The notes under the pieces are model-generated. The model ran no database searches. It was given only the letters and a program-made list of their open reading frames with translations, and had not been told where the DNA came from. The position numbers were made by a program, and so were the translations under genes. Below are positions 1 to 7,481 of a DNA stretch of 64,000 nucleotides, one piece after another (positions within the stretch are counted from its first letter, which is position 1; the number at the start of each line of letters is the position of its first letter). The stretch comes from Salinarchaeum sp. IM2453 (lineage in GTDB: Archaea > Halobacteriota > Halobacteria > Halobacteriales > Salinarchaeaceae), in assembly GCF_019693215.1 (NCBI RefSeq), contig NZ_CP081183.1, positions 1,367,226-1,431,225 of the forward strand. The letters are read 5' to 3'.

Positions 1-475
1 CCTCTTTGGCACGGCGGCGGCAGGCGTCATCTAAACTCTGATTCCAGGCGTCGACCAACTGGACGATCTTCTTCATTTCGTCTGCAAGTGCCTTGTATTC
101 TTTTTCTTGGCTCAATGCTCGAAAAACAGATACACGATCGATATTTGTCGTTGATAATATCGTCAGGTGAGTCACAAACAAATGCATTCGATCTCCCATC
201 TCTGCTTTCCGCTTGTTCTCAAGCAATTTCGGATAGACTAAGACACTGAATACTGCCAGTAGTCCAAGTGCTGGAATTGGGATACGAGCTAGCAGTGGAA
301 GTGGGGCAACAATGGCCGCACCAATCGTTCCGATAAAGAATACCAGTGATGGCAATACATACAAGAGGAAATACCGTCGAACTGGTATCTCCATGGTCCG
401 ATACGCATCAGCAACTGAAGCTACGCTTAGTGCGAGTGTTCCTTTTGAATCGTCTTGTGATGTCGTTGTTGCCAT
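1..475 (-). CDS. arlJ: Archaellum platform membrane protein ArlJ (FlaJ), 5' part
   Basis: This is the N-terminal ~158 residues of the archaellum membrane platform protein, the TadC/PilC-like partner of the ArlI motor ATPase. The gene runs off the left edge. The ATG at 475-473 overlaps the arlI stop by one base (TAATG), which indicates translational coupling. Two hydrophobic segments are visible at about residues 35-58 and 62-82, followed by a charged cytoplasmic stretch, as expected for the N-terminal half of the family. Identity rests on these features and on the fixed arlH-arlI-arlJ order. The rest of the protein cannot be seen. Confidence 0.9.
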   Translation of the reverse strand, partial: MATTTSQDDSKGTLALSVASVADAYRTMEIPVRRYFLLYVLPSLVFFIGTIGAAIVAPLPLLARIPIPALGLLAVFSVLVYPKLLENKRKAEMGDRMHLFVTHLTILSTTNIDRVSVFRALSQEKEYKALADEMKKIVQLVDAWNQSLDDACRRRAKE

Positions 476-2148
476 TAGTATTCACGAGCAATTCCGAATG
501 GTAGCCCCTCGATTCCATCTCGCTGGAAGGTTTCAATTGCTTCGTTCACCTCATGGTATCCAAGAATATTCTCTTCGACCATCCGTTCGATGACTTCTGC
601 TCTGAAGTCTAATTCATCGTATATTTCGCGCGTGTCTTCGTAACCTAATAACGTTGCAATCTGTTCTTCAAGAACATATGAATTGTTTCGTCCTTGGAAG
701 ATGATCTCATCACGAGCTGGGTCCCAGTAGAATGACTGACGAGTTACGACACCATCCATCTCTTCGGAATATCCTTCGATTTCCTGTACAGACGTGACCC
801 GTCGTAGAACGTCGTCTCCCTGCTTCACTCGGTTCTGGAAGAGCGCGATATCCGCGTTATCCATGAATGTCTCTGGTACATTAATTGGATCACCAGTAAA
901 CCGCTGAATCATCGATACAATATCACTGGCGTGGAATGTCAACATTACTGGGTGTCCGGTTTGTGCAGCCTGGAACGCCATACGTCCTTCTTCTCCTCGC
1001 ACTTCCCCAACAATAATGTATTCTGGCCGCGATCTAAGTGCTGCTTCAACCAGATCGAACATATCTACGTCAGCACTGTCATCGCCGCTTCCCTCACGAG
1101 TTTTGAGCTGCTGCCAATTATCATGAGGCGGTAACACTTCGAGTGTATCCTCAGCTGTGTATATCTTTGAGTCGCGAGGAATAAACGACATAATCGCATT
1201 CAGCGTTGTTGTCTTTCCTGACGCTGTTTCTCCCACAACGAAGATTGTCTGTTCGTTCTCTAATGCCAGCCACAGGTATGCTGCTAACTCTGGGGAGAGA
1301 GTTCCCCACTTTGTAATCTGCAAGACAGAAAGTGGAACTTCATCACCTTGTCGGATTGTCAGACTTGATCCCTGTACGGAGACATCATCACTGTAGATAA
1401 TGTTGATACGTGAACCATCCGGCAATGTTGAGTCAACAATTGGATCTGAATCGCTCAATGGATCTCCAATCCGTTCACCCATATTTCGTAGCCAGTTATC
1501 ATATCTCTCTTCGCTTTCCCACTCAACGGTCGTCTCAAGCAGCCCAAATGTATCATGGTCAACGTAGCACTGCTGTGGTCCAACAACATGAATATCTTCA
1601 TTTGATGGGTCTCGCATAACGGGCTCAAGCGGACCATATCCAGCAATATCACGTGTTAACTGATACCGAAGATTCTCATACGTCTGCTCTTCAACGGTGG
1701 TTCGACCGATCCCAAGTGCATCTAACAGCCTATTCAGACTCCGCCCATCACCGTTGCTCTTGACCTGGACTGTTTCCTCTAATAGCTCTTTGATTCGCTC
1801 ATCATACTCATCATTCGTCGATGGTGCTGGCTTATTCGCCGATAAATCAAGCAATCGATCTCTGATTTTATCATACAGCGTTTTACCTTCACTATTTAAC
1901 GTTGGCTCAATCGCATAGTACTGTGTATCACGTCCAACGTCTCCGTGAATATGAGAGAATATCGGACCATCAACGGAATATAAGATATTTGGATGGTCTA
2001 CTTCGTGATCTGATTCAGGCTCCTCAACATACTTCGGAAACTCACCAGTAATTCGTCGGAACTGCTTGAGATGTTGAGCGAGATGTGGTCGACGTGCCGC
2101 TTCTCGTTTAAGTTCCGGCGAAATACTTCGAGTTCCGTGTTCTGTCAT
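475..2148 (-). CDS. arlI: Archaellum motor/assembly ATPase ArlI (FlaI)
   Basis: 557 aa type II/IV secretion-superfamily ATPase that powers both assembly and rotation of the archaellum on the cytoplasmic face. The N-domain holds the family signature IAGYGPLEPVMRDP (about residues 168-181). Walker A GETASGKTT lies at about 306-314, followed by the ASP/His-box region (EVRGEEGRMAFQAAQTGHP). The length is normal for haloarchaeal ArlI, with the usual N-terminal extension. It lies 11 bases downstream of arlH and overlaps arlJ by one base, so arlH-I-J form one translational unit. Confidence 0.96.
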   Translation of the reverse strand: MTEHGTRSISPELKREAARRPHLAQHLKQFRRITGEFPKYVEEPESDHEVDHPNILYSVDGPIFSHIHGDVGRDTQYYAIEPTLNSEGKTLYDKIRDRLLDLSANKPAPSTNDEYDERIKELLEETVQVKSNGDGRSLNRLLDALGIGRTTVEEQTYENLRYQLTRDIAGYGPLEPVMRDPSNEDIHVVGPQQCYVDHDTFGLLETTVEWESEERYDNWLRNMGERIGDPLSDSDPIVDSTLPDGSRINIIYSDDVSVQGSSLTIRQGDEVPLSVLQITKWGTLSPELAAYLWLALENEQTIFVVGETASGKTTTLNAIMSFIPRDSKIYTAEDTLEVLPPHDNWQQLKTREGSGDDSADVDMFDLVEAALRSRPEYIIVGEVRGEEGRMAFQAAQTGHPVMLTFHASDIVSMIQRFTGDPINVPETFMDNADIALFQNRVKQGDDVLRRVTSVQEIEGYSEEMDGVVTRQSFYWDPARDEIIFQGRNNSYVLEEQIATLLGYEDTREIYDELDFRAEVIERMVEENILGYHEVNEAIETFQRDGIEGLPFGIAREY

Positions 2149-2159
2149 GGTTTCACTTT

Positions 2160-2924
2160 TTATGCAACACTACGATTTTCAATAACAATCCCAACACCGG
2201 ATCGAACTGAATAGCCAACGGTGTCTCCCACTTGCTCGCCCATTCCGGTAAATCGCTTGACGGAGATATTACGTCGAACCTCATTTCCAACTTCGATCAT
2301 CTGCAACTGAAAATAAACATCAGCGATTGAACGAAACGGACCCATCACATCATCATCAACTGTCGTTGGGTCAACCGTCAAGATCACGATTTTACCCTTT
2401 GCAATGATATCGCGGAAGAAGTCAATAATTTCCAATGCTGCCTGCCGTTCTTCGCCCTCCCGAACGAGCTCTTCGAAGTTTGGGTCATTTCGAAGAACCG
2501 CATCGAATGTATCAATCATGACCACATCTGCTTCCCACATCGCTTCAGCTTCCATCAAGCGTTTAAACAACTGCATTCGCTCACTCTCGTCATCACTGCC
2601 CCGGAGTGTATCTGATGTGTCAATATCTCCATGGAGGAAAAGAATATTTTCATCCAGAAGATGTCCCTCCATGTTGTAATCGAGCGAGTGCATTTGGTCC
2701 ACAAACCCACGCGTTGTCAACTCTGTTGAAAGCAATGTTACTGTATTTCCCTCTTCACACATTCCATACGAAAATCGCTGGGTAAGTGCACTTTTCCCAG
2801 CACCATATTCTCCTTCGATTAAAACAATACTTCCTCGTGGAATCCCTCCACCGAGCTCTGAATTAAGCCGATCTCTATTATCAAGCCCAAGCGAAATCAA
2901 TTCTCTTCCTGTTGTTGAACTCAT
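2160..2924 (-). CDS. arlH: Archaellum KaiC/RecA-like ATP-binding protein ArlH (FlaH)
   Basis: 254 aa RecA/KaiC-fold protein. ArlH sits under ArlI-ArlJ inside the motor, and its nucleotide binding regulates the motor. A good Walker A (EGEYGAGKSAL, about residues 37-47) and a Walker B-like VVMIDTFDAVL are present. No long extra domains are seen, and the length is typical. Its ATG (2924-2922) overlaps the arlG stop by one base. Confidence 0.95.
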   Translation of the reverse strand: MSSTTGRELISLGLDNRDRLNSELGGGIPRGSIVLIEGEYGAGKSALTQRFSYGMCEEGNTVTLLSTELTTRGFVDQMHSLDYNMEGHLLDENILFLHGDIDTSDTLRGSDDESERMQLFKRLMEAEAMWEADVVMIDTFDAVLRNDPNFEELVREGEERQAALEIIDFFRDIIAKGKIVILTVDPTTVDDDVMGPFRSIADVYFQLQMIEVGNEVRRNISVKRFTGMGEQVGDTVGYSVRSGVGIVIENRSVA

Positions 2925-3412
2925 TATTCACTCACCCGAAATTGGATATTTTCTTCATGGCCGTTAATTGTCACATGTACTGAGACATCTTCCCCTGTCT
3001 CGAGATTAAGATCATCGTCAATTGTCTCATCAATTGTTATGATAGCAACTGATCCTGTCTCCCAAATTATCTCGTCACCTTCTGTTGGTTCGACATCGAA
3101 ATTCTCTGCCAACCGTCCATCTACCAGTATAGATATCTCTTGTTCATCAGCAACCAATTCTGTCGATCCGATGTTTTTCAGTAATAGCTCTACCTCATCA
3201 CCGTCATCGTTTAATTCATATAACTCCTCTTCAGCATTCGGATCACTGATTATCTCAAAGTCTGTCTCAATCTGCTCACTTGTATCTGCGCTCCGATCAG
3301 CAATTGAATCCCCTACTTGGCCAACGCCCGCAACGAGAACTCCTGCAACTCCCGCTGCAACAACCATACTTGCAATAAACATAATCGCATGCGAAACAGA
3401 CACTCCCGACAT
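2924..3412 (-). CDS. arlG: Archaellum stator protein ArlG (FlaG)
   Basis: 162 aa protein with one N-terminal hydrophobic helix (about residues 8-28) followed by an acidic, beta-rich extracytoplasmic domain. This is the class III pilin-like layout of ArlG, which with ArlF forms the stator contacting the S-layer or periplasm. Its start is directly adjacent to the arlF stop, and its end overlaps the arlH start by one base. Assignment rests on topology, size and position between arlF and arlH. Sequence conservation in this family is low. Confidence 0.88.
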   Translation of the reverse strand: MSGVSVSHAIMFIASMVVAAGVAGVLVAGVGQVGDSIADRSADTSEQIETDFEIISDPNAEEELYELNDDGDEVELLLKNIGSTELVADEQEISILVDGRLAENFDVEPTEGDEIIWETGSVAIITIDETIDDDLNLETGEDVSVHVTINGHEENIQFRVSE

Positions 3413-3826
3413 TTAATCCACCTCCGTTCTGTCGAGAATTCCTGTCTCGGTTACAATAGTAACCCGGTCGCCATCCTGATCGACTGTAAACACGGCTGTT
3501 TCTCCCGGAAGCCAGAGATTTGTCTCTTCATTCCCGTTTACGCTTGTGCTTGTTGGATCAACGACCTCTTCATCAACAACGACAGTTGTCTCATCAAGCT
3601 TTAGCCCAATATCTCCATCATTTTTTACTTCTACCGTGTCTTCATCGAGTTCTACCTTTTCAATCTCAACCTCTGTGCTCTGCTGTTCAAGTAATCGATC
3701 TGCTCGCTCCTCTTCTGCATCAGAGATCATTCCGTAGCTGTTTGCAGCAACGGTAAATGCTGACCCAAATGCGATGAACAGTCCAAGAAATATAATCGCG
3801 GTTGCTCCACTAACACTAAATCCCAC
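3413..3826 (-). CDS. arlF: Archaellum stator protein ArlF (FlaF)
   Basis: 137 aa protein with a single N-terminal transmembrane helix (about residues 5-28) followed by a short acidic, beta-strand-rich domain. In characterised archaea the FlaF soluble domain binds S-layer protein and anchors the rotating filament. It overlaps the upstream arlCE-type gene by 11 bases and abuts arlG. The call comes from size, topology and the conserved arlF-G-H-I-J order. Confidence 0.86.
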   Translation of the reverse strand: MGFSVSGATAIIFLGLFIAFGSAFTVAANSYGMISDAEEERADRLLEQQSTEVEIEKVELDEDTVEVKNDGDIGLKLDETTVVVDEEVVDPTSTSVNGNEETNLWLPGETAVFTVDQDGDRVTIVTETGILDRTEVD

Positions 3827-4886
3827 TAGAACTCACCTCCGAGGATTGCGTTTCTTTGATTGTTCGAATATATCGGAGACTGCGTACATGATCTGTAACC
3901 GATAATTGGTTTTGTAACTTGACTTCGGTTCCAGATACTGCCTCTGGTAGGCCATCAAGATACGCGTGTAATTGATCTCGAACAGCGGGAGAAATCCAAC
4001 CGGTTTTCGCATATAGCGTTAATGTGGCAGCTGTTCCGGCTCTTCCCCAGTTACTTGTTAACCAACCAAGCCACTCAATAACGTACCGTTCCACAGCATA
4101 CCCTCCGTCAATTTGCTGAAGATATGGCTCACTATCACCAGCGTACACAGGCAGCCCATGCTTGCTCTTGGGAAGAACTAGTTTTTTAAACTCAAACGCG
4201 CCGTGCGTCTCATCTTCAACTTCTACCGACTGGCTGTCTTTGTCCCTTTCTTTTGACTCAGTTGTTCCAATATACCCGTTTTCTTCATCCACTCTCTGTT
4301 CTACCGTGTCAAGTATATTGGTCGACTGCTGTGGTATTGACCCTTCTTTGCTTGGATCATCACTAATAACCACCCGAGCTGGCTGTCCAACAACGTCACC
4401 GATCTTGTATCCTGGTTGTTTTATTTCGAGAATCTCACCGTTAGGACGCTTGCTTGATTTGATTCCATGAACCATATGAGTTTTATCATCAACCATCTCT
4501 CCAACTTCTGGCTCAATCATTTCAACGCCTGCTCGTTTAAGCCCAAGATCCAACCGCTGTAAGCGTATGTCAAGCTCTTCAGCGGTCATTGAGCCATTGT
4601 TTTTTATCGCTGTCCAGAGTTCATTTCGAATACTAACCAACCGATCAACTGCCTCTTCAGGTGACAGATCAGCTGTCTCGTCGATATCCTGTAGTTTCCC
4701 CCGCTCTGTACTATCCTCCATCATCTCCTCATCTGACTCATCAATACTGTATTCACCAATAATCAGCCCCTCTTCTAAGCCATCATTGTCTTCTTCCTTG
4801 TCGCCCTGCTGGCGCAGCTGCGTGGCTAGCTCCGACAGTGACGCTTGCTCACGAACCTTATCAATTGAGGGGCTGAATGATAACAT
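3816..4886 (-). CDS. arlCE: ArlCE/D-type archaellum protein with an embedded GrpE-like domain
   Basis: 356 aa soluble protein. The C-terminal third (about residues 245-335) is a FlaD/FlaE domain, with the characteristic VIEWLGWLTSNWGRAGTAATL stretch split around about residue 270, as in the cytoplasmic ring proteins that connect the motor to chemotaxis signals. Residues about 78-176 resemble the dimer-helix end and beta-wing of GrpE: the segments GVEMIEPEVGEMVDD, ILEIKQPGYKIGD and PARVVIS follow the GrpE order of GVE-x-I, D-x3-H, E-x-Q-x-GY and A-x-V-x-V. The first ~75 residues are acidic and probably disordered. Gene order (just before arlF) supports the symbol, but it could equally be labelled arlD. 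Confidence 0.82.
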   Translation of the reverse strand: MLSFSPSIDKVREQASLSELATQLRQQGDKEEDNDGLEEGLIIGEYSIDESDEEMMEDSTERGKLQDIDETADLSPEEAVDRLVSIRNELWTAIKNNGSMTAEELDIRLQRLDLGLKRAGVEMIEPEVGEMVDDKTHMVHGIKSSKRPNGEILEIKQPGYKIGDVVGQPARVVISDDPSKEGSIPQQSTNILDTVEQRVDEENGYIGTTESKERDKDSQSVEVEDETHGAFEFKKLVLPKSKHGLPVYAGDSEPYLQQIDGGYAVERYVIEWLGWLTSNWGRAGTAATLTLYAKTGWISPAVRDQLHAYLDGLPEAVSGTEVKLQNQLSVTDHVRSLRYIRTIKETQSSEVSSSGI

Positions 4887-5009: not shown

Positions 5010-5597
5010 TTATTTCTGTGGTGGGAAATTGAATGCTCCATCTTCCCTCATCGTGATCAACAAATCAGCGATTGTATCATCCGTTGAAAGTCCATTATCA
5101 ACAAGATACTGTTCAAAGCTTTTTACTGGATACTGGACTGAAACATCAGATTCTGAAAGCAAGATTCCAAGCACTTCTCCTGGGCTCATCTCTGAATCGA
5201 GATTCTTTGCGTACCACGCAAGGAGATTATTAAATGTCGTTGTAACGTCATCTGCGTATAGCCGGTGATGGTCGACTGAGTCTCCATACTTTACTGAAAT
5301 TCGATAACCAAATTCTGTCGGTATGTCTCGTAATTCTGCTTCTACCTGTGATTCGATGTTAGCTTCCCCGATTTTGCTTGCTGTACTCGATTTACTGTCT
5401 CGGCTAATATGTGTACGTTGCTCTGATTTTTTATCTTTGTTTACAGCTTTTTCTGGCACATCTGGCTTGCTTCCATCGGTTGAGACAACATATCTTCCCT
5501 CTTCAATCTCTTCGACTTCCTCCTTTTCAGACAGCCGAAGCTCATCCGGTGAGAGCACACCTTCTTCATCGGGGTCTGGATTCCCCGGCGGACTCAT
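5010..5597 (-). CDS. Uncharacterised archaellum-cluster protein
   Basis: 195 aa acidic protein in the position where many haloarchaea carry arlD. I see no FlaD/E domain in it. The first ~60 residues contain a short conserved-looking segment (VLSPDELRLSEKEEVEEI) followed by a low-complexity charged linker. The C-terminal ~105 residues look folded (ELRDIPTEFGYRISVKYGD onward). The N-terminal pattern resembles what I remember as a haloarchaeal DUF7500-type family, unchecked. It lies 123 bases upstream of the arlCE gene on the same strand. No function is proposed beyond an accessory role inferred from location. Confidence 0.75.
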   Translation of the reverse strand: MSPPGNPDPDEEGVLSPDELRLSEKEEVEEIEEGRYVVSTDGSKPDVPEKAVNKDKKSEQRTHISRDSKSSTASKIGEANIESQVEAELRDIPTEFGYRISVKYGDSVDHHRLYADDVTTTFNNLLAWYAKNLDSEMSPGEVLGILLSESDVSVQYPVKSFEQYLVDNGLSTDDTIADLLITMREDGAFNFPPQK

Positions 5598-6144: not shown

Positions 6145-6711
6145 TCAATCAGTGGATTCAATCATATTCTCAAGACCAAATTCCGAAGCCTGCTCTCGTG
6201 CTTGTTCCCGTGCGTCTGATTGAATCTTATCTATCCGACTTTCATCCTCAAAAAACGATGATAATCCGTCATTACCTGTTGTCGATGCTGTTAATCTATC
6301 ATTATTTGCTGCCGATCTTGATTCAATATTGTTTCTTTCTCTAAGTTCTTCAGCCAGACTTTGGTCTCGAATGAATTGTTCTATGATCAGCGTTAGCGAC
6401 AATTCCGCCTTTTCGGTGAGTCCCGTAATTTCTGTCTTATCTGCTTGATAGAGCATAATATGATATGGTCCAATATCTGGGATTCCCTCAAGTGCCTCTC
6501 TGCCGGTCTGCCCTGTTCCTGTCTGATACGCTGCTCGAGGTATACCTCGCTCTATCACAATGATATTTCGACCAGTTGTTTCTTCCAAAACTGCTCCACT
6601 AGCTTCAATCTCGATATACCCTGTTCTACTTTCCTCAATACAGTCTTGAAAGATTGATTCAAGTGAATTGACCGTCTGTGATCGGAGTAGTTGACCCTCC
6701 GGTAGTCTCAT
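6145..6711 (-). CDS. Uncharacterised protein translationally coupled to a ParA/MinD ATPase
   Basis: 188 aa protein. Residues about 10-90 form a small alpha/beta domain with the pattern 'G-x-I-x-I-E ... I-V-x-x-x-G-x-P-x-A ... G-x-E-A-L', which resembles DUF4388/PATAN-type effector domains by eye only. The C-terminal half is charged and helical. Its start codon (6711-6709) overlaps the ParA stop (ATGA), so the two are co-translated and probably act together. In the sampled haloarchaeal gene order this pair lies between archaellum and cobalamin genes. Function unknown. Confidence 0.75.
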   Translation of the reverse strand: MRLPEGQLLRSQTVNSLESIFQDCIEESRTGYIEIEASGAVLEETTGRNIIVIERGIPRAAYQTGTGQTGREALEGIPDIGPYHIMLYQADKTEITGLTEKAELSLTLIIEQFIRDQSLAEELRERNNIESRSAANNDRLTASTTGNDGLSSFFEDESRIDKIQSDAREQAREQASEFGLENMIESTD

Positions 6712-7481
6712 GGTGGCTCAGGAATGACTGCACTTCGAAACCGATCAGCAACCGCTGCGGCCTCTCGATCCTGAATCTCAATTTTCTCTGCAGCCTTTCG
6801 ATACTGGTTCGATACCGGTGCATCAGGGGCGTATGCAAGTAATGGTTTTCCAGCCTCTCGTGCTGCTGCAATAGTTTCACTTTCTGGAATCATCCCAAGT
6901 ATCGGTCCATCAAAATAGCGCTCCGTTTGCTCTTGAATTTCTGTTACGGACTCTTGATCTGTGACTCGGTTAAACAATACACCTGCGTTTCCGGTACCGT
7001 ACGCAGACGCGTATTCTTGAACCTTCAATCCATCACTAAGCGACGGTACTGTTGGTTGCAGCACAGTTATTGTTCGATCGGCAAGCACAATCGGCAGTAC
7101 AGCACTCTTTGAACCAAGCGTTGCTGGTGCATCCAGTAAGATCACATCTGTCTGCTCACTCAGCTCAACAATCACCGATTGTAGTAACTCCGGATTTGCT
7201 TCCTTAAACCCATCCAGATTAGTACCACACGGTAATACATGCATCCCGAACTTGTCATAGATTGCCTCCTCAAGTCCAACATCGGACTTCTCAATTAACA
7301 GGTCATGAAGTGTGACATCAACATCAGCCAGACCAGTATGAAATAGTAGATTAGCCATTCCGGTATCTGCATCAACTACTGTTACATCGTAATCTTCAGC
7401 AAGGGCCATCCCAAGTGCAAGTGTGCTTGTTGTTTTTCCAGTTCCACCCTTCCCACTTGCAACAGCAAACACCTCTACCAT
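6708..7481 (-). CDS. ParA/MinD-family ATPase
   Basis: 257 aa P-loop ATPase with the deviant Walker A of the ParA/MinD class (GKGGTGKTT, residues 10-18), switch I (VVDADTGMANLLF) and Walker B region (VILLDAPATLG). Such proteins dimerise on DNA or membrane to position cargo. No C-terminal amphipathic membrane-targeting helix of the MinD kind is obvious, although the last ~20 residues are partly helical. The following gene overlaps by four bases. The closeness to archaellum genes invites a role in polar placement, but this is inference. MinD4, the known haloarchaeal motility-linked homologue, is much longer. Confidence 0.9.
   Translation of the reverse strand: MVEVFAVASGKGGTGKTTSTLALGMALAEDYDVTVVDADTGMANLLFHTGLADVDVTLHDLLIEKSDVGLEEAIYDKFGMHVLPCGTNLDGFKEANPELLQSVIVELSEQTDVILLDAPATLGSKSAVLPIVLADRTITVLQPTVPSLSDGLKVQEYASAYGTGNAGVLFNRVTDQESVTEIQEQTERYFDGPILGMIPESETIAAAREAGKPLLAYAPDAPVSNQYRKAAEKIEIQDREAAAVADRFRSAVIPEPP

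Follow-up and report, generated by a model that had tools for sequence, protein, structure and literature searches.

The archaellum locus

The window analysed here, a stretch of 64,000 nucleotides from the genome of the halophilic archaeon Salinarchaeum sp. IM2453 (G000), holds an archaellum (arl) operon of which all listed genes are read from the minus strand (Table 1). Directly upstream of arlF lies an ORF with an ATG start, here denoted P0001, that encodes two recognizable domains within one uninterrupted frame. The gene order DUF7500, P0001, arlF, arlG, arlH, arlI is conserved in the two genomes of the same family that were searched, both of the sister genus (G001 and G002), and the overlap between the 3' end of P0001 and the start of arlF recurs there as well. 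The syntenic counterparts of P0001 measure 553-556 aa, and the C-terminal third of P0001 is 35-36% identical to them in an alignment that starts at residue 231. A Pfam scan of the G001 protein yielded Arch_fla_DE and no GrpE domain; at the place where P0001 has its GrpE domain, a coiled-coil-like stretch was discerned by eye. Farther upstream of the arl operon (window positions 6145-7481), a gene for a MinD/ParA-like ATPase overlaps an ORF of 188 aa without a Pfam match.

Table 1. Coordinates of the archaellum genes, the domains of P0001 and the auxiliary Hsp70 pair. Positions are those of the window unless a locus is given.
Feature	Position	Strand	Basis or remark
Putative arlJ ORF, cut by the window edge	2..475	-	Named from operon position only
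arlI, ATPase, 79% identical to sister genus	475..2148	-	Synteny
arlH, KaiC-like ATPase, 78% identical to sister genus	2160..2924	-	Pfam, synteny
arlG	2924..3412	-	Synteny
arlF, overlaps the end of P0001	3413..3826	-	Synteny
P0001, 356 aa, GrpE domain and ArlD/E domain	3816..4886	-	ORF list, Pfam
Arch_fla_DE (ArlD/E) domain of P0001, residues 252-344	3855..4133	-	Pfam
GrpE beta-wing of P0001, residues 122-176	4359..4523	-	Model and alignment
GrpE Pfam match of P0001, residues 65-175	4362..4694	-	Pfam; predicted structure
GrpE dimerisation helices of P0001 (two short helices of a four-helix bundle), residues 76-121	4524..4661	-	Model and alignment
DUF7500 protein, upstream neighbour in the sister genus too	5010..5597	-	Pfam, synteny
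511-aa Hsp70	L054:10835-12370		Directly upstream of the 625-aa protein, same strand
625-aa Hsp70-like protein with GrpE tail, same genome	L050:1392-3269; G000:C1:1860.9 kb		HSP70 match in the middle, GrpE C-terminal

An earlier note on this DNA had placed the ORF at the right coordinates, though without its strand, and had described the product as an ArlCE/D-type protein in which a GrpE-like domain is followed by a FlaD/E domain. The latter is indeed there (Arch_fla_DE, PF04659; 75.7 bits against a cut-off of 21, E 2.7e-21). The name holds for its ArlD/E part and not for its ArlC part: Pfam returned no match in P0001 to the FlaC (ArlC) coiled-coil domain (PF05377) at E<=10, and the protein is therefore of the ArlD/E type rather than ArlCE/D. 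P0001 shares with the euryarchaeal ArlD/E and ArlCE switch-complex proteins the ArlD/E domain, the place before arlF and the synteny, but it differs from them in having a GrpE module on the N-terminal side and no FlaC match, whereas the second ArlCE protein of the genome, at 1149 kb, shows the usual FlaC plus ArlD/E build (Pfam). As a component of the archaellum switch/ring complex, P0001 belongs to the ArlD/E type and carries this module.

Identity and fold of the GrpE domain

The GrpE resemblance, which had been read by eye, is borne out by both profile and fold. P0001 scores 43.4 bits with the Pfam GrpE family (PF01025; curated cut-off 25.8, E 3.8e-11), and the motifs named in the earlier note were recovered as GVEMI (120-124), DDKTH (133-137), EIKQPGY (154-160) and PARVVIS (169-175). 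An AlphaFold2 model of residues 62-190, calculated with a mean pLDDT of 83 (above 90 in the beta-wing), retrieved GrpE or GrpEL1 as the top 12 Foldseek matches in the PDB (1e-6 to 6e-3), with the thirteenth at 1.6; at E<0.01 the model matched nothing else, including no other beta-wing family. A profile of 41 domains, P0001 included, matched the GrpE chains 4ani (2.6e-15), 3a6m (3.4e-15) and 1dkg (4.8e-13), although most of its rows are housekeeping GrpEs, so that this result backs the group more than P0001 alone. As a single sequence P0001 matched the PDB weakly (best 0.038), again with GrpE.

Compared with the GrpE family at large, P0001 possesses the helices of the four-helix bundle and the beta-wing, but deviates in several respects besides its fusion to ArlD/E. 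All its matches to the NCBIfam GrpE equivalog models (down to E 1.1e-6) remain below the cut-off, the best being 28.6 bits where 164 are required (nucleotide exchange factor GrpE), which indicates that P0001 carries a GrpE domain and is not an orthologue of the housekeeping GrpE. By alignment no counterpart was found of the long N-terminal stalk helix, and residues 62-75 of the model are non-helical. Within the wing, P0001 retains residues that are invariant across the other alignment rows, such as D133, H137, G159 and A170. Where E. coli GrpE has R183, a DnaK contact, P0001 carries a valine (Val165), as does its closest relative described below, whereas 33 of the remaining 39 rows have Arg or Lys. 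Considering the valine in both of these domains, nucleotide exchange may have been lost.

These deviations bear on the idea that the module acts at the motor as a true nucleotide-exchange factor of the housekeeping DnaK, aiding folding or assembly. The GrpE fold and a Pfam score above the cut-off would agree with it, and DnaK, DnaJ and GrpE of the housekeeping type are all encoded in the genome. We nevertheless consider it improbable, since the P0001 domain shares only 31-33% identity with the genome's own housekeeping GrpE and falls outside the housekeeping clade, and both the stalk and the R183 residue are gone. The same identity values and the tree argue against descent from the housekeeping GrpE.

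Origin of the domain and its closest relative

The genome contains three GrpE matches: the housekeeping GrpE at 447 kb, P0001, and the C-terminus of a 625-aa Hsp70-like protein at around 1861 kb. The GrpE tail of the latter is the closest relative of the P0001 domain (52% identity over residues 69-186). The genes for the 625-aa protein and a 511-aa Hsp70 form a pair that spans 1857.8-1861.3 kb. Judged by eye, the ATPase motifs typical of Hsp70 (DLGTTNS, NEPTAA, YDLGGGTFD and VGGSTRIP) are present in the 511-aa protein, which stops short of the greater part of the lid, while NEPTAA and YDLGGGTFD are lost from the 625-aa protein; the two could work as an Hsp70 with an Hsp110-type partner. Only one J-domain protein passed in this genome, encoded beside the housekeeping DnaK, so the auxiliary Hsp70 pair would have to share that protein or work without any. 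In mortalin-GrpEL1 the stalk touches SBD-beta, and the short helices and the beta-wing touch the NBD (PMC11685456). The occurrence of a stalk-less GrpE domain alongside an Hsp70 whose lid is largely missing, as read from the two sequences, is suggestive at most.

Three genomes that belong to a different family (G109, G341 and G418) likewise encode a homologous Hsp70-like protein with a GrpE tail next to a short Hsp70 homologous to the 511-aa protein. By maximum likelihood, these tails group with the P0001 domain and the tail of the 625-aa protein in a clade (100/98) that is separate from the housekeeping GrpEs and within which P0001 and its paralogue pair at 97/53, an SH-aLRT value of 53 being weak; the tree program warns of long branches meeting. 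The tails resemble the P0001 domain in being stalk-less and in belonging to the same clade, but there the GrpE domain ends a degenerate Hsp70-like protein. Profile, fold and tree rule out a chance match as the source of the signal, and the presence of a genuine GrpE domain in an archaellum protein is firmly established.

The similarity between P0001 and its paralogue is unevenly distributed: the helices (residues 80-121) are 69% identical and the wing (122-176) 47%. An excess of helix over wing this large was found in none of 470 control pairs, which were taken from other alignment rows at comparable overall identity and are mutually non-independent. Synonymous sites are saturated (pS 0.754 in the helices and 0.773 in the wing), which does not support the idea that the helix segment was recently duplicated or overwritten by gene conversion, and pN is lower in the helices (0.202) than in the wing (0.308). 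Taken together, these values indicate that the likeness of the helices is maintained by selection and does not stem from recent copying. On sequence grounds the conservation fits a dimer interface that is common to the two proteins or still similar, with mixed dimers being hypothetical.

Distribution of the fusion

P0001 was searched in 59 relatives, in 394 genomes of the class and in 394 of the phylum, and an alignment of both GrpE domains in 394 genomes of the order. Given the overlap of these sets and handles that run up to G609, at least 600 genomes were covered. To the question, raised in the earlier note, whether homologues elsewhere have the same segment, the answer was that a GrpE and an ArlD/E domain share one ORF in the present genome only, among at least 600 genomes of the phylum and at cut-offs of 1e-13 (class) and 1e-7 (phylum), beyond which a more diverged fusion could be missed. 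A weak match in G598 that spanned both domains was found, by sequence and BLAST, to be only an ArlD/E protein. Within the literature searched, limited in papers and terms, there was no report of a fusion of GrpE to an archaellum protein. As the module is missing from the archaella of relatives, it is not generally needed.

A fusion known from one genome could be an assembly chimera or otherwise spurious, yet this can hardly be the case here. The genome is a single contig, the frame is open throughout P0001, the base composition is even along it, and the arlF overlap is the same as in the sister genus. Moreover, the two GrpE copies show 69% DNA identity over 178 bp and are far too diverged for mutual misassembly.

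Possible roles at the archaellum motor

Of all readings, the two guessed at in the earlier note still lead: a dimerisation platform and a link to a chaperone. According to the first, the module would serve structure only, as a homodimerisation element that replaces an ArlC-type coiled coil and makes no contact with Hsp70. We regard this as a real possibility, somewhat short of probable. The absence of a Pfam FlaC match from P0001, next to its retention in the other ArlCE protein, points in this direction, as do the coiled-coil-like stretch at that place in the sister-genus orthologue, the dimerisation helices being the best-conserved part, the missing stalk and the valine at the R183 position. 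However, a pure dimer clip would have no obvious need of a wing, and the wing is still constrained (pN 0.31 with saturated pS) and keeps its invariant residues. Furthermore, two independent homodimers do not predict a helix sequence in common with an Hsp70-like protein.

By a narrow margin, and in view of two bacterial precedents, we favour the alternative, in which the module would dock the auxiliary Hsp70 pair. The kinship of the module with the tail of the Hsp70-like protein and the excess of helix over wing identity between the two likewise speak for it. Active type IV pilus motors of Nostoc have a DnaK1/DnaJ3/GrpE system as interaction partner, with DnaK1 binding PilB in two-hybrid tests (PMC9239167); the core of the archaellum motor and the type IV pilus motor share homology (PMC8978795). 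StkA, an Hsp70-like protein of Myxococcus, acts between type IV pili and the Dif proteins (PMC4319316). What the cyanobacterial system and StkA/SglK have in common with the present case is an Hsp70 system tied to a motility machine based on type IV pili; the difference is that they consist of separate proteins, whereas here the co-chaperone domain lies covalently within an archaellum protein.

The reading to which we give nearly an even chance makes the GrpE module a handle for dimerisation, which would probably pair with the Hsp70-like protein and so attach an auxiliary Hsp70 system to the archaellum motor. Its partner at the four-helix bundle would be either a second copy of the module or the GrpE tail of the Hsp70-like protein, and through this contact the Hsp70 pair would reach the motor at its cytoplasmic ring. 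The Hsp70 docked there might assist in assembling or remodelling the ArlD/E-ArlH-ArlI complex, or signal the state of the motor, a role modelled on the one proposed for DnaK1 at active type IV pilus motors of cyanobacteria. Against this reading stand the restriction of the fusion to a single genome, the lack of the module in the archaella of relatives, the valine at the R183 position, and the weak SH-aLRT value and long branches in the tree. There are hints of such docking, and it is best seen as a testable guess; that the domain does form mixed dimers with the Hsp70-like protein, and that the auxiliary Hsp70 is a working part of the switch complex, we think rather unlikely.

How the chaperone meets the motor in type IV pilus motility linked to Hsp70 is, to our knowledge, not settled. 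Hsp70 systems have been tied to this motility in two bacterial groups, and P0001 would extend the link to the archaellum. As a natural fusion of GrpE and ArlD/E it names a possible contact point between chaperone and motor, open to a direct binding experiment.

Auxiliary Hsp70 loci in other genomes

The loci of the other family differ from that of the present genome in that J-domain-like and other genes adjoin. At L077 (2330-14984) and L076 (917-11007) a conserved cluster contains the same Hsp70 pair and further genes, for vWA, J-domain-like Ig-repeat, membrane and (by eye) P-loop-looking proteins; the vWA gene was seen in L077 and L086 and is not shown in L076. PADLOC gave no match among the auxiliary Hsp70 proteins and cluster proteins tested. 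Finally, a 552-aa protein of G043 (L042:2363-4018) has a divergent GrpE domain (PF01025, E 4e-18) that forms a long branch in the tree and is distinct from the housekeeping GrpE of that genome.
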